Assembly (NCBI RefSeq): GCF_007747215.1
Contig: NZ_CP036273.1
Coordinates: 5,564,322 to 5,628,321 of the forward strand
DNA from: Urbifossiella limnaea
GTDB lineage: Bacteria; Planctomycetota; Planctomycetia; Gemmatales; Gemmataceae
Length of the DNA: 64,000 bases
Direction: 5' to 3'
Shown piece after piece: positions 3,367 through 48,036 of the stretch (position 1 is the stretch's first letter; every line of letters begins with the position of its first letter). Below the pieces are notes generated by a model. The model saw only the letters and a program-made list of their open reading frames with translations, was not told where the DNA came from and made no database searches. The position numbers were made by a program, and so were the translations under genes.

Positions 3367-3445
3367 AGGCGAGCGGCCCGCGTGAGCGGGCTGTTGATGC
3401 GCCGCACGCGCGGATCAACAGCCCGCTCACGCGGGCCGCTCGCCT
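3367..3445. repeat. Long inverted repeat, family A
   Basis: Two perfectly complementary 32-base arms (3367-3398 and 3414-3445) flank a 15-base loop. The arm begins aggcgagcggcccgcgtgag. Related arms occur at 11005-11083, which has the same 79-base total length, and at 14415-14483. It lies between the broken secreted protein and moxR and could act as a terminator, but the family resemblance argues for a dispersed element. Confidence 0.9.
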
Positions 3446-4568: not shown

Positions 4569-4684
4569 ATTGGCCACAAAAAGGCACGAAAAGACACAAA
4601 AAGGAAGACCGAGCAAAACCTGAATTCGGCTCGGTCTTGGCTTCCTCTTCTTTTTGTGTCTTTTCGTGCCTTTTTGTGGCCAAT
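4569..4684. repeat. AT-richer inverted repeat between moxR and DUF58 gene
   Basis: Perfect 35-base arms at 4569-4603 and 4650-4684 (attggccacaaaaaggcacg and onward). An inner stem (gaagaccgagc at 4604-4614 against 4629-4639) surrounds a short loop. Base composition is far lower in GC than the flanking genes. The element interrupts an otherwise operon-like order. Confidence 0.9.
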
Positions 4685-11004: not shown

Positions 11005-11083
11005 GGCGAGCGACCCACGTCAGTGGGCTGTTTCATGGCGCGAGTCCTCGGCAGGCACAGCCCACTGACGTGGGCCGCTGGCC
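11005..11083. repeat. Long inverted repeat, family A
   Basis: Arms at 11005-11030 and 11058-11083 pair with two mismatches. The arm (ggcgagcgacccacgtcagt) is clearly related to the elements at 3367 and 14415. It lies in the short gap between the second VWA gene and the next membrane protein gene, so it sits inside the apparent operon. Confidence 0.85.
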
Positions 11084-13339: not shown

Positions 13340-16291
13340 TCACCCGTCGGCCGCGGCGGCCAGCACCTCCAGCGGGTGCCAGGCGCGGCGGCCCGTCAGG
13401 TCGCGGACCTGGTGGCGGCACGAAGTGCCGGTCGCCACCACCGTCGCCCCCGGGTCCGCGTTCAGCGCCGGCAGTAGCGCCAGGTTCGCCACCGCCACGC
13501 TCACGTCGTAGTGCTCCCGCTCGTAGCCGAACGCCCCCGCCATGCCGCAGCAGCCGGCGTCGAGCACGGTCACGTCCTGGTGCGGCACCAGCTTCAGCGC
13601 CGCCGCCGTGCCCGCGGTGCCGACCAGCGCCTTCTGGTGGCAGTGGCCGTGGAACAGCACCTTCCCCGGCTCGGCCGCGAGTGACACCCCGCTGTCACGC
13701 AGCCGCGGCGCCAGCCACGCCTCGGCGAGGTGCGCCGCCGCCGCGACGCGCTTCGCCGCCGCGCCGGGAACCAACTCCGGCCACTCGTCGACGAGCGTGA
13801 GCAGGCAACTCGGCTCGAGGCCGAGCACGGGCACGCCGGCCGCCGCGTACCGGTCCAGCTTTGCAACCCCTTGCTGGGCAAGCCGGCGGGCGTCACCGAG
13901 GAACCCCTTCGAGATCATGGCCCGGCCGCAGCACACGCCCGCCAGCTCGACGGCGAACCCGGCGCGTTCCAGCAGCCCGACCGCGGCACGGCCGATGTCG
14001 GGTTCCTGGAAGGTGGTGAAGCAGTCGTCGAGCAGCACGACGCGGTTCGGCCCGGCCGAATGACGGCGGACGGAGGACGACGGACGCCGTGCGAACCACG
14101 CGCGGAAGTGCTCGCGGTGCAGTTCGGGCAGGCTTCGGCGGCGGTCGATGCCGGCGAGGTTTTCGAGCGCCCCCCGCACCCACCGCTGGCGCGCCAGCCA
14201 GTTGCCGACGCCGGCGAAGCGGGCCGCGAGCGGACTTAGTTGGTGGACGCGCTTCACCAGCCGGTGCCCGAGCGGCCGTACCCGGCGGGCGTAGTAGGCG
14301 TGCAGGAACTCGGCCTTCAGCTTCGCCACGTCCACGTTGCTCGGGCACTCGCTCTTGCACGCCTTGCACGACAGGCACAGGTCCATCACAGGGGCGACCC
14401 AGCGCTGCGACAGCGGCGAGCGGCCGGCGTGAGCCGGCCGTTGCGTCGCGCCGGGAACAGCCGGCTCACGCCGGCCGCTCGCCAGCGTGTCACCCTCCAT
14501 AGCGTGCCGCACCGCGTTCGCCCGGCCGCGCGTCGTGTCGCGCTCGTCGCGCGTCACCCGGTAGCTCGGGCACATCGCCCCGCCCTGCGTCTTGCGGCAC
14601 ACGCCCACGCCGTTGCACAGCTCCACGCTGCGGAAGAACCCGCCCTGCGCCTCGTAGTCGAACACCGTCGGCAACTCCGGCAGCGGCCGGCCGGGCGGGT
14701 GGCGGAAGCCTTCGTCCATCGCCGGGCCGTCCACCACCTTGCCGGGGTTCAGCACGTTGCCGGGGTCGAACCCCCGCTTCACCCGGCGGAACGCCTCGTA
14801 CACCACCGGGCCGAACATCGCCCGGTTCCACTCGCTCCGCACCATGCCGTCGCCGTGCTCGCCGCTCAGGCTGCCGCCGAACTCCAGCGTCAGCGCCACG
14901 ACGTCGGCCATGATGGCGCGCATCGTCCGCACGTCGGCCGGGTCGTGGAGGTTCAGCACCGGGCGGATGTGGAGGCACCCCACAGACGCGTGGCCGTAGA
15001 AGCAGCCGTCTGTCCCGTGGCGGTGCAGCACGTCGCGGAACCGGGCGGTGAACTCCGGCAGCCGCTCCGGGGCGACGGCGCAGTCCTCGACGAACGTCAC
15101 CGGCTTGCGGTCGCCGACGGTGCCGAACAGCAGCGGCAGCGCGGCGCTGCGGAGGTTCCAGAGGGGGTCGCGCGTCGCCGGGTCGAGCGCCGGCACGGCC
15201 GCGGTCAGGCCCGGGACGCCCTTCAACCGGCGCGCCAGCTCGTGGACGCGGTGCGCCACCTCGGCCGCGTCGTCGCCGCTGAATTCGACCATGAACAGCG
15301 CCTCGGGCCGGCCGCGGACCGCCGCCATCGTGTCCTTCAGGCCGCGCTGCTTGGCCGCGAGTTCGATGAGCATCCGGTCCATCAGCTCGACGGCGGACGG
15401 GCCGAGTTCGAGACACGCGGCCAGCGTGTCGAGTGCCGCGGCGAGGGTGGCGAACTGCGGCACGAGGAGGCCGCGGTGTTTGGGCCGCGGCAGCAGGTTC
15501 AGCTCGGCGCCGGCGGTGACGGCAAGCGTGCCCTCGGAGCCGACGAGCAACGGGACGAGCGAGGGCGGGGCGTCGCACTGCGAGAGCAGGTTGTACCCGC
15601 TCACCTTCCGCTGGATGCGCGGCGTGCGGGCGGCGATCTCGGCGGCGTGGTCGCGGACCACGGCGGCGGTGGCGCGGTAGGCGTCGCCCTCGCGGGTCCG
15701 CAACTCCAGCTTCCGCTCGTACTCGTGGGCGGACAGCGGGCCGAACGTGCCCACCGTTCCGTCGGACAGAACCGCCGTCAGCGACCGGACGTGGTCGACC
15801 GTGCGGCCGTTGACGACGGACCGCGAGCCGGCGGAATTGTTGCCGATCATGCCGCCGAGCGTGGCCCGACTGGCAGTCGCCACGTCCGGGCCGAACACCA
15901 GCCCGAACGGCGCCACGGCGCGGTTCAGTTGGTCCAGCACCACGCCCGGCTGAACCGTCACCCGCCGGCCGACTGCGTCCACCTCGCCGACGCAGTTCAG
16001 GTACTTCGAGCAATCCAACACGACGCCCGGACCGATGGCCTGCCCCGACAGGCTCGTGCCGGCGCCGCGGGCCGTGATCGGCACGCCGAGTTCGGCCGCG
16101 ATCTGCACCGTCACCGCCAGGTCGTCCACGGTCCGCGGCACGACGACGCCGAGCGGCTGAACCTGGTAGTGGCTGGCGTCGGTGCTGTAGAGGCGGCGCG
16201 AGGTGTCGTCGAACCGCACCTCGCCGGCGACGTGCCGGCGCAGGTAGCGGACCAGTGACTCGCACCGGACGGCGTGGAAGTCGGAATCCAT
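13340..16291 (-). CDS. FAD-linked oxidase fused to Fe-S/CCG reductase, with inserted palindrome
   Basis: A 983-residue fusion of a GlcD-like FAD-binding oxidase with a GlcF-like Fe-S protein. It probably oxidises a 2-hydroxy acid such as D-lactate and passes electrons to the quinone pool. The FAD region has ITARGAGTSLSGQAIGPGVV (about residues 75-95) and GGMIGNNSAGSRS. The FAD-oxidase C-terminal domain includes a His-rich CFYGHASVGCLHIRP stretch. Near residue 637 a 4Fe-4S motif reads CLSCKACKSECP. Two CCG motifs follow (GVCCGRAMISKG, GCCGMAGAFGYE). Residues about 603-625 are encoded by a palindromic element at 14415-14483 and separate ANAVRHAMEG from the cluster motif; relatives have a much shorter link here. 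The start at 16291 begins conserved sequence. An upstream start at 16354 would translate a simple repeat. Confidence 0.9.
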   Translation of the reverse strand: MDSDFHAVRCESLVRYLRRHVAGEVRFDDTSRRLYSTDASHYQVQPLGVVVPRTVDDLAVTVQIAAELGVPITARGAGTSLSGQAIGPGVVLDCSKYLNCVGEVDAVGRRVTVQPGVVLDQLNRAVAPFGLVFGPDVATASRATLGGMIGNNSAGSRSVVNGRTVDHVRSLTAVLSDGTVGTFGPLSAHEYERKLELRTREGDAYRATAAVVRDHAAEIAARTPRIQRKVSGYNLLSQCDAPPSLVPLLVGSEGTLAVTAGAELNLLPRPKHRGLLVPQFATLAAALDTLAACLELGPSAVELMDRMLIELAAKQRGLKDTMAAVRGRPEALFMVEFSGDDAAEVAHRVHELARRLKGVPGLTAAVPALDPATRDPLWNLRSAALPLLFGTVGDRKPVTFVEDCAVAPERLPEFTARFRDVLHRHGTDGCFYGHASVGCLHIRPVLNLHDPADVRTMRAIMADVVALTLEFGGSLSGEHGDGMVRSEWNRAMFGPVVYEAFRRVKRGFDPGNVLNPGKVVDGPAMDEGFRHPPGRPLPELPTVFDYEAQGGFFRSVELCNGVGVCRKTQGGAMCPSYRVTRDERDTTRGRANAVRHAMEGDTLASGRREPAVPGATQRPAHAGRSPLSQRWVAPVMDLCLSCKACKSECPSNVDVAKLKAEFLHAYYARRVRPLGHRLVKRVHQLSPLAARFAGVGNWLARQRWVRGALENLAGIDRRRSLPELHREHFRAWFARRPSSSVRRHSAGPNRVVLLDDCFTTFQEPDIGRAAVGLLERAGFAVELAGVCCGRAMISKGFLGDARRLAQQGVAKLDRYAAAGVPVLGLEPSCLLTLVDEWPELVPGAAAKRVAAAAHLAEAWLAPRLRDSGVSLAAEPGKVLFHGHCHQKALVGTAGTAAALKLVPHQDVTVLDAGCCGMAGAFGYEREHYDVSVAVANLALLPALNADPGATVVATGTSCRHQVRDLTGRRAWHPLEVLAAAADG
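14415..14483. repeat. Palindromic element inside a coding sequence, family A
   Basis: Perfect 24-base arms at 14415-14438 and 14460-14483 around a 21-base loop, total 69 bases, a multiple of three. The arm ggcgagcggccggcgtgagc matches the intergenic elements at 3367 and 11005 with few changes. It lies wholly within the FAD/Fe-S oxidase gene and is read in frame as 23 extra residues rich in Arg, Pro and Ala. Confidence 0.92.
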
Positions 16292-16308
16292 GCGGGGTGG
16301 TATAGCCC

Positions 16309-16376
16309 GAATGACGAATGACGAATGACGAATGACCGAGACCGCCGTCGTCATTCGTCATTCGTCATTCGTCATT
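16309..16376. repeat. Short tandem repeats facing each other
   Basis: Four copies of the 7-base unit atgacga at about 16309-16336 face the reverse complement (cattcgt units) at 16350-16376. This gives a potential 27-base stem with a 13-base loop. It lies between the start of the oxidase gene and the end of the small Cys-rich gene. Confidence 0.85.
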
Positions 16377-33528: not shown

Positions 33529-33640
33529 GCCGCACCTCGCCCGGGGGGATAGCGAGGCGGGGTGGGTTCTGCAAGCCGGGCTACGGCGCGACGGAAATAC
33601 AAGTTGGGGCGAAATACACGGACCAGGCGCTCTCGAACCC

Positions 33641-33718
33641 GGCGAGCCGGGGGCATCAGCCCCCGGATTCGTGGGGCGCGTGTCACGAGAATCCGAGGGC
33701 TCACGCCCCCGGCTCGCT
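33641..33718. repeat. Inverted repeat overlapping a gene end
   Basis: Arms at 33641-33673 and 33684-33718 (ggcgagccgggggcatcagc and onward) pair with a few mismatches. The right arm supplies the stop codon and last residues (PSEPGA) of the gene at 33701. Confidence 0.8.
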
Positions 33719-34195
33719 GGGTGGTGTCGCGGAGCCGAGCCAGAACTGTTCGAGTTCGATGAGCGAACAGCCTTCGCCAAGAGCAACATTGCGGCAGGCA
33801 GTGATGATCTGCAGGTACGCAGGGTAGTCCGTGATCCCGTTGATCGGACCATTCAGTTGGAGCAATCTCGCCAATACTTCCGGGCTGACTTTTCGCTTGG
33901 GGCTGGCGGCTAACTCGCTAAGCCCCGACCACAGACCGCCGTCGATGGGCGGATGGAGTACGTCCCGGAGTCCGGGCCGGCCGAGGTCGCCGACATACGC
34001 TGCCGTCTTGAGGTAGACGTTCAACATCTTGACGGCCCACCCGACTACGAGCCGATTGCTTCGGTTACATAACGCGCTCGTGCTGTCCCTGTGCCAGTCG
34101 TCAAACTCAGTGGGAGTGATCGGCGTTCCAGGCAGTAAAACCGTGCCGAATACGACGTTGTCAAGAAGCGGATAGACCTCGATTCGTGACTTCAC
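33701..34195 (-). CDS. Protein of unknown function, 5' end cut off by IS insertion
   Basis: A 164-residue reading frame with no recognised family; GC is lower than in the flanking genes, suggesting transfer. The first available start is a GTG at 34195 with a poor ribosome site. The frame stays open past it to 34241, the exact left edge of the IS3 element (YYARWTALSALKRSP). On the other side of the element an AGGAG and GTG with 12 good codons remain (35476-35513). The natural gene therefore probably began there. Joining the parts after removing the element and one target copy leaves a one-base mismatch in frame. The C-terminus is built from the repeat at 33641-33718. Confidence 0.6.
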   Translation of the reverse strand: MKSRIEVYPLLDNVVFGTVLLPGTPITPTEFDDWHRDSTSALCNRSNRLVVGWAVKMLNVYLKTAAYVGDLGRPGLRDVLHPPIDGGLWSGLSELAASPKRKVSPEVLARLLQLNGPINGITDYPAYLQIITACRNVALGEGCSLIELEQFWLGSATPPSEPGA

Positions 34196-43517: not shown

Positions 43518-43624
43518 TTTCGTAGGTCGGGTGTTCGAGACCTGACAGCGGCACCGATCAGAGCGGACGACCGCGGGAAGTCGTTCGCGCCGCGTGTCAG
43601 GTCTCGAACACCCGACCTACGAAA
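43518..43624. repeat. Inverted repeat, family B
   Basis: Perfect 30-base arms at 43518-43547 and 43595-43624 (tttcgtaggtcgggtgttcg and onward). The arm resembles that at 35534. It lies between two convergent genes and may act as a terminator for both. Confidence 0.92.
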
Positions 43625-47984: not shown

Positions 47985-48036
47985 TTCGCCGCTTGCGGCT
48001 TAGCGGCGTGGACGCCGCTAAGCCGCAAGCGGCGAA
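47985..48036. repeat. Perfect inverted repeat between DUF1549/1553 and DUF1501 genes
   Basis: 25-base arms at 47985-48009 and 48012-48036 (ttcgccgcttgcggcttagc and onward) with a 2-base centre. It sits in the 86-base gap of an otherwise standard two-gene operon. Confidence 0.92.

Follow-up and report, generated by a model that had tools for sequence, protein, structure and literature searches.

The 64,000-nucleotide (nt) stretch of the Urbifossiella limnaea genome analysed here (contig NZ_CP036273.1, positions 5,564,322 to 5,628,321; hereafter the window) carries a gene for an FAD-linked oxidase whose coding sequence contains a 69-bp palindromic element. The open reading frame (ORF) of this gene extends over 13340..16354 on the minus strand, and translation likely begins with the ATG 16289-16291. 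Oxidase residues are numbered in the reading from 16288. The features to which the following paragraphs refer are:

13340..16291, minus strand: gene of the FAD-linked oxidase, with FAD_binding_4, FAD-oxidase_C, a 4Fe-4S dicluster domain (Fer4_8, residues 555-652) and CCG domains according to Pfam
14415..14483, no strand assigned: 69-bp palindromic element, a REPIN-like inverted doublet, read on the minus strand in the oxidase gene as (L)ASGRREPAVPGATQRPAHAGRS(P)
14415..14438, plus strand: unit 1 of the element, head GGCGAGC followed by the inner hairpin GCCGGC-GTGA-GCCGGC
14460..14483, minus strand: unit 2, the same unit copied in inverse orientation
3368..3444, no strand assigned: sibling element of 77 bp, outside genes
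11005..11083, no strand assigned: sibling element of 79 bp, outside genes, with the inner hairpin CCCAC-GTCA-GTGGG
33637..33722, no strand assigned: related palindrome with a GGCGAGC head (GGCGAGCCGGGGGCATCAGCCCCCGG), found in a palindrome census and not flagged as genic

The two arms of the element (14415-14438 and 14460-14483) pair without mismatch over 24 nt, and if one mismatch is allowed they extend to 28 nt around a loop of 13 nt. The coding-strand RNA (minus strand, 14400-14498) folds with an energy of -80.9 kcal/mol, corresponding to a z score of -8.2 against 200 shuffles, and the inverted-repeat score of the region is 25, compared to a maximum of 14 in 200 shuffles. Within the protein the element corresponds to residues 602-625, the end codons of which belong partly to the flanks. 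It thus lies within the dicluster domain, in the stretch that separates the two cysteine motifs, and immediately before C638xxCxxC. Arm complementarity and open frame bear out the first-pass annotation, which had described a 69-base element with perfect 24-base arms in the coding sequence; its position before CxxCxxC and its two intergenic siblings hold as well, both siblings being members of the same family. Of the further claim that the element adds exactly 23 codons, the in-frame 69 nt stand, while the exact gain is unprovable since the length of the linker itself varies.

We built a covariance model, termed R1, from 24 copies of the element and searched the single 7.8-Mb contig of the U. 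limnaea genome (G000). This yielded 138 strand matches at 70 distinct places, which is a lower bound, since 150 of 25,714 candidates were scored. Searches with one arm of the element (up to three mismatches) gave 100 forward and 107 reverse matches in the whole genome, compared to 29 and 16 for a reversed-pattern control. Confined to the window, a 17-nt arm pattern with the same tolerance was less striking (10 matches, a shuffle mean of 4.4, and 2 of 100 shuffles reaching 10), and a search of a plasmid collection with the oxidase-gene element found no match. Nearly all copies (67/70) are 77-83 bp long; the oxidase copy, with 69 bp, is shorter. The alignment and pair counts of the 24 copies show two inverted, individually palindromic units that together make one hairpin. 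Each arm has a small inner hairpin of the type CCxxC-GTGA-GxxGG, whose stem covaries (CGC/GCG, GGC/GCC, GAC/GTC). Moreover, the copies at 225289 and 117476 have two different arms and three loci (L006, L026, L035) hold apparent half copies with a single arm, which suggests that the unit is a building block. A second subtype, B, begins with GGCGAACGGCCGGCGTCAGCCGGCTGGTC and is mostly 82 bp long.

All 70 copies (3 from the window, 67 from other stretches of the genome) were read together with their flanks, and reading frames were judged with a codon-usage table derived from 145 genes. Eight copies lie within genes and 62 outside. The genes in question, with the genome position of the copy, are:

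117476: DcuC-type transporter, the gene having been run against Pfam
147640: ArnT-like transferase, named from reading its sequence
3711168: UvrA, named likewise
5085862: a second transferase, named likewise
5578736: the oxidase, the gene having been run against Pfam
5673833: histidine kinase, named from reading its sequence
5967879: DUF1549/1553-type protein, named likewise
6164743: RNase R, named likewise

All eight copies are in codon phase 2 (nnG GCG AGC ...) and encode recognisably the same hydrophilic peptide, of the type ASGPRERAVP...QPADAGRSP (e.g., KASGPRERAVPEHASGAPEQPADAGRSP). Their length is divisible by three in seven of eight cases, as opposed to 29 of the 62 copies outside genes. 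When these 62 copies are read on both strands (124 readings), phases 0, 1 and 2 are open and frame-keeping in 3, 56 and 43 cases, from which simple arithmetic gives a chance of about 0.001 for eight out of eight copies in phase 2. An open frame alone is therefore insufficient to account for this. Phases 1 and 2 differ in their peptides: the mean GRAVY (grand average of hydropathy) is -1.20 in phase 2, whereas it is near neutral (-0.22) in phase 1. In another genome of the same genus (G001), 55 copies were classified, in addition to three near contig ends that were left unclassified. Of two flagged as genic, one (L355) appears spurious and was left uncounted; the other is a clear in-gene copy of 75 bp in phase 2 (LASGRRQPVGGVPTASDQPADAGRSP). 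Among the non-genic copies 4/53 have a length divisible by three. Among the elements of related subtypes in sister species, position assigns five to phase 2, and a sixth, in RNase R of G004, belongs there according to its peptide. The coding-compatible palindrome family inferred in the first-pass annotation, to be sought genome-wide by its arm, is thus supported by at least 70 copies, eight of them genic and all eight in a single codon phase.

Fourteen copies had at first been flagged as in frame, and six of these were dropped on reading as non-genic: those at 544639 and 3339211 are situated between stop codons, and those at 745648, 2971263, 5256395 and 6297560 upstream of a likely start. Of seven copies with flanks in the same phase, which were re-read, six are intergenic and the one at 301683 ends its gene at the element's TGA.

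Of 41 genomes examined with the covariance model, 13 contain the family, and all of these belong to the same order; the family thus stands and its confinement to one species does not. The counts, which were obtained with stricter filters and miss sister subtypes, are at least 113 in G000, at least 113 in G001, 109 in G023, 25 in G004 and 21 in G005; there were zero matches in G002 and G003.

The copies outside genes are found near gene ends, as is typical of REPINs. Seventeen of the 62 lie between genes called convergent, and there is no copy whose two neighbours were both called divergent; for 22 copies a gene call is missing on at least one side. Genes are directed towards the element on 75 sides. 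On 56 of these the stop codon is reached before the element (median distance 8 nt; 51/56 within 15 nt). Of the other sides, 11 have a gene terminated by the arm's own TGA (its tail being GERPA* and once SERPA*), seven have a stop codon that includes the first base of the element, and on one the gene runs through. Random placement by the same criteria (1,906 sides) gives a median of 27 nt with 31% within 15 nt. Other palindromes of the genome behave like the family (25 sides, median 8 nt, 19/25 within 15 nt), two further sides being read into the palindrome. This placement agrees with reports on REPs, in which most convergent REPs (conv-REPs) are no more than 20 bp away from either of the two ORF ends and stop codons are supplied by the ends of REPs (PMC3733652).

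The alignment of the oxidase with relatives shows how the element sits in the protein. The segment corresponding to query residues 592-638 spans 45-52 residues in all six genomes of the genus (G000-G005). Outside the genus it is 24-34 residues long in 20/24 orthologues and 40-59 in four (G010, G011, G021, G028). The 23 residues of the insert are absent from every orthologue sequence printed in this comparison, which is the check that the first-pass annotation had proposed. An AlphaFold2 model of the oxidase (30 sequences) has a mean pLDDT (predicted local distance difference test) of 87.2. Two segments fall below 50: the longer one, 601-621, is the insert, and the other, 742-745, is another linker that bears a palindrome in sister species. 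Because the frame is open, the flanks are conserved and the model places a low-confidence loop here, the element is probably translated, giving the dicluster domain an additional flexible loop between its cluster motifs. Separately, a contig filed as the cyanobacterium Amazonocrinis (L288) has an oxidase with 87% identity over query residues 3-598; it probably stems from contamination by a relative of the genus.

We then asked what the linkers holding the eight in-gene copies look like in orthologues from G001-G005. The survey comprises 35 of 40 possible gene-by-genome pairs; four pairs had no good match, and the histidine kinase of G001 (L244) was dropped as fragmentary. The homologous linker holds a palindrome in 13/35 sister orthologues, six of related GGCGAGC subtypes and seven of other sequence. 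These 13 palindromes lie in 4,341 nt of linker, as opposed to nine in the 78,975 nt of the remaining ORFs (odds ratio 26, p 7e-12, nucleotides being taken as independent). Of the nine, three are in a second UvrA linker (G002, G004, G005) and four in the two other linkers of the oxidase, near residues 238 and 735. At the site of the oxidase insert itself, other palindromes are present in G001, G002 and G004, with a weak one in G005. Moreover, 24 named oxidase loci were examined among 80 fetched. Palindromes occur in eight of them, and all 15 are confined to the three linkers, two loci (L275, L278) having them in all three. Four of the eight are apparently G001-G004 again, as judged by identical arms. 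The other 16 named loci have no oxidase palindrome, including all of L289-L296, none of which is labelled Gemmataceae. Long linkers in L276, L281 and L297, in which no palindrome was scored and whose peptides are of the type RNAE...HSALRTPHSAL, look like decayed inverted arrays. In the DUF1549/1553-type gene, finally, G001 has at the same site what appears by eye to be a decayed in-frame remnant of the family, and the G004 sequence apparently joins two different units.

Y1 transposase genes are present in all six genomes of the genus (35 matches, of which 30 were fetched and examined). Palindromes of the GGCGAGC kind adjoin seven of the 30 genes, in five of the six genomes. They flank the gene on both sides in G000 (L046, GGCGAGCCGGGAGCGTGAGCGACCGG), G002 (L270) and G004 (L271), and on one side in G001 (L256, GGCGAACGGCCGGCGTGAGCCGGCTGGTCGTTGGT, B subtype), G004 (L268) and G005 (L264 and L272). 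Flanking of a Y1/HUH transposase gene, as known for REPINs, is thus found for the B subtype on one side and for related subtypes. In G002, G004 and G005 the palindrome next to the transposase equals or nearly equals palindromes within genes of the same species. The seven proteins were grouped by eye, without a tree, from an alignment of eight proteins, in all of which HxH, Y and Q are conserved. An initial view that the three Y1 transposases of U. limnaea are unrelated to the element, the best match (L045) having a one-sided palindrome of another kind, was overturned by L046. Target-site duplications were sought around the 70 copies, and their lengths never exceed those in shuffled flanks; Y1 enzymes are expected to leave none. 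Near position 986,500 of U. limnaea, a further Y1 gene (L047) has another kind of palindrome, of 73 nt, on either side (1361-1433 and 1906-1978 of that locus, GTTAGGCCGGGGCGCAAGCCCCGGCGG), and similar copies of this palindrome occur elsewhere in the genome.

As structure, placement, lack of target-site duplications and transposase flanks all fit, we consider it highly probable that the element is a REPIN-like mobile miniature, tolerated in frame as a linker at sites that are used repeatedly. It would consist of a pair of REP-type units in inverse orientation, joined by a variable spacer and each containing a small hairpin, in total about 81 bp. RAYT-type Y1 (HUH) transposases probably move such elements, to judge from the sequences around their genes, and one of them would have copied this element into the oxidase gene as single-stranded DNA. 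Copies would survive where they do little harm, which is mostly right after stop codons, some contributing the TGA of their arm as the stop codon. Within genes, survival would require a frame-keeping length and a phase that yields a hydrophilic, unstructured peptide. A fixed copy could then decay in frame to an ordinary linker, as the one remnant recognised by eye suggests, and other palindromes would strike the same tolerant linkers again in sister species.

Several observations weigh against parts of this explanation. Gene calls rest on codon usage and open frames rather than on annotation. The UvrA copy at 3711168 measures 83 nt by the model, which is not a multiple of three, none of 16 copies in G023 lies within a gene (one is near a contig end), and in G004 two elements of another subtype are in phase 1 (ArnT-like gene and oxidase linker 3). 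The model R1 is blind to G002 though related palindromes exist there, and its counts thus miss sister subtypes. The exact A subtype was seen beside none of the transposase genes examined, those of U. limnaea included, whose own RAYT (L046) has the sister subtype, and no palindrome-flanked Y1 gene was seen in G003 among 7/11 Y1 matches examined. The second transferase (0/3) and the histidine kinase (0/4) have no palindrome in any sister species examined, and some of the 13 shared-linker cases, such as UvrA in G002 and G005, may go back to one inherited insertion.

Other explanations account for part of the data. That the element is ordinary coding sequence, palindromic by coincidence, would be in line with the abundance of short inverted repeats in high-GC coding DNA, but this idea is already refuted: the same palindrome occurs at least 70 times, mostly outside genes, and the score of 25 was not approached by shuffled sequence (14 at most). 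Ribosome bypass of the element or its removal from the mRNA would leave it untranslated, as is reported for transcribed yet bypassed palindromes in the mitochondrial genes of a yeast, Magnusiomyces (PMC6649704). In that case the frame would not have to be open nor the phase fixed, yet all eight in-gene copies are open in phase 2 and their lengths keep the frame far more often than those outside genes (7/8 vs 29/62), which makes this account very improbable. A palindromic element of the Rickettsia type (RPE), or a miniature inverted-repeat transposable element (MITE) moved by a DDE transposase, in either case unrelated to RAYTs, seems improbable too. RPEs are likewise in-frame coding palindromes of similar size (PMC2229807), but one Y1 group is flanked by palindromes of this kind in five of six members of the genus, which is why we prefer the REPIN label, and the target-site duplications of a MITE were not found, their lengths being no longer than in shuffled flanks. 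The comparison with Rickettsia made in the first-pass annotation thus holds for the in-frame coding palindrome, whereas a RAYT-associated REP doublet fits better than an RPE.

Selection for the hairpin itself deserves more weight, but still appears unlikely. In this explanation ribosomes would be made to pause by a 28-bp mRNA stem located between two domains or two cluster motifs, the palindrome being kept while its sequence turns over. The very stable stem, different palindromes in the same linker of sister species and the ribosome stalling reported for REPs at most 15 nt from a stop codon (PMC12306157) speak for it. However, the linker has no scored palindrome in 22/35 sister orthologues, 20/24 oxidases from outside the genus manage with a short linker, so that the hairpin is unnecessary, and a decayed in-frame remnant exists; tolerance combined with frequent insertion is the cheaper account of the re-use. 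We give a similarly low rating to a broader version for this genus, in which selection favours hairpins at particular linkers (those of the oxidase, UvrA and RNase R) and mobile palindromes that are unrelated to each other, RAYT-type REPINs and inverted heptamer arrays among them, interchange there as pause sites and linker generators, structure and place being kept and sequence not. Returning to the REPIN-like miniature, its function is probably incidental: the copies would serve as neutral linkers where loops tolerate them and as ready-made stops where genes end, and a pause function of the stem is possible.

The U. limnaea genome is rich in hairpin elements. The window and 15 spaced stretches (360 kb) hold 41 strong palindromes, in about ten families by eye; of seven flagged as genic in this census, two were judged convincing. 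Three more long palindromes of other sequence lie in the window (4569-4684, 43518-43624, 47985-48036). A second class has arms of tandem 7-nt units whose heptamer differs between loci (GAATGAC, GAATGCG, GAACGCG, GGGGAGT and others). It is represented at:

16310-16376 of the window: heptamer-array palindrome, within which the upstream ATG of the oxidase ORF (16354) falls
L161, 4171-4259: heptamer-array palindrome
L164, 4874-4976: heptamer-array palindrome
L163, 10247-10344: heptamer-array palindrome
oxidase linkers of G001-G004: heptamer-array palindromes

Heptamer arrays also occur in frame within genes, and none flanks a Y1 gene in the loci seen.

The results tie coding palindromes, which in Rickettsia are grouped with repeats that have no known dedicated transposase (PMC3733652), to a concrete transposase group elsewhere. 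They suggest that conserved enzymes, UvrA and RNase R among them, repeatedly receive linkers and stop codons from mobile hairpins; the addition of protein linkers by hairpins looks like a recurrent process. The oxidase gene moreover offers a test case of a 28-bp mRNA stem that ribosomes have to read through. Protein-coding palindromes (PMC2229807) and in-frame REPs within tnpA-REP genes (PMC6006769) are already known, while the head motif, the transposase link and the re-use of linkers appear to be new. A literature search in a partial library for Gemmata together with REP or palindromic elements found none, and in the available part of the Gemmata genome paper 'palindromic' is used for CRISPR alone (PMC4672568).

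Among known systems, the family resembles the REPINs of RAYT/TnpA-REP transposases (PMC3116915, PMC6006769) in its inverted short palindromic units with a spacer, its many dispersed and mainly extragenic copies (62 of at least 70), its placement behind gene ends and the Y1 gene flanked by such palindromes. Its head is GGCGAGC, unlike the GTAG-type tetranucleotide of REPINs, hence the term REPIN-like for what would be a variant. The share of copies in genes is 8/70, compared to the 14 of 1,067 16-mers that are reported to overlap genes in Pseudomonas fluorescens SBW25. Intragenic GTAG/CGTC REP dimers likewise encode 20-30 residues in genes that include uvrA of O. terrae and Thioalkalivibrio (PMC3733652), but they differ in head motif and lineage, and here the main family keeps one fixed codon phase and other palindromes re-use the same linkers across sister species. 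With RPEs (PMC2229807, PMC3733652) the family shares an in-frame palindrome in protein genes that is, to judge from the open single phase of 8/70 copies, read as additional peptide; it differs from those of R. conorii, which are CGTC repeats without a dedicated transposase known in that source (PMC3733652), in its association with a Y1 transposase. GTAG-less structures are known for TnpAY1 class 3 and subclass 2.6 (PMC6006769). Class 3, found mainly in Planctomycetes, Acidobacteria and Proteobacteria, also resembles our family in its GTAG-free and possibly high-copy flanking structures. It has the foot CnGA and the Y motif Y----Q, a spacing that L046, L271 and L047 share and from which the other proteins differ by one residue fewer.

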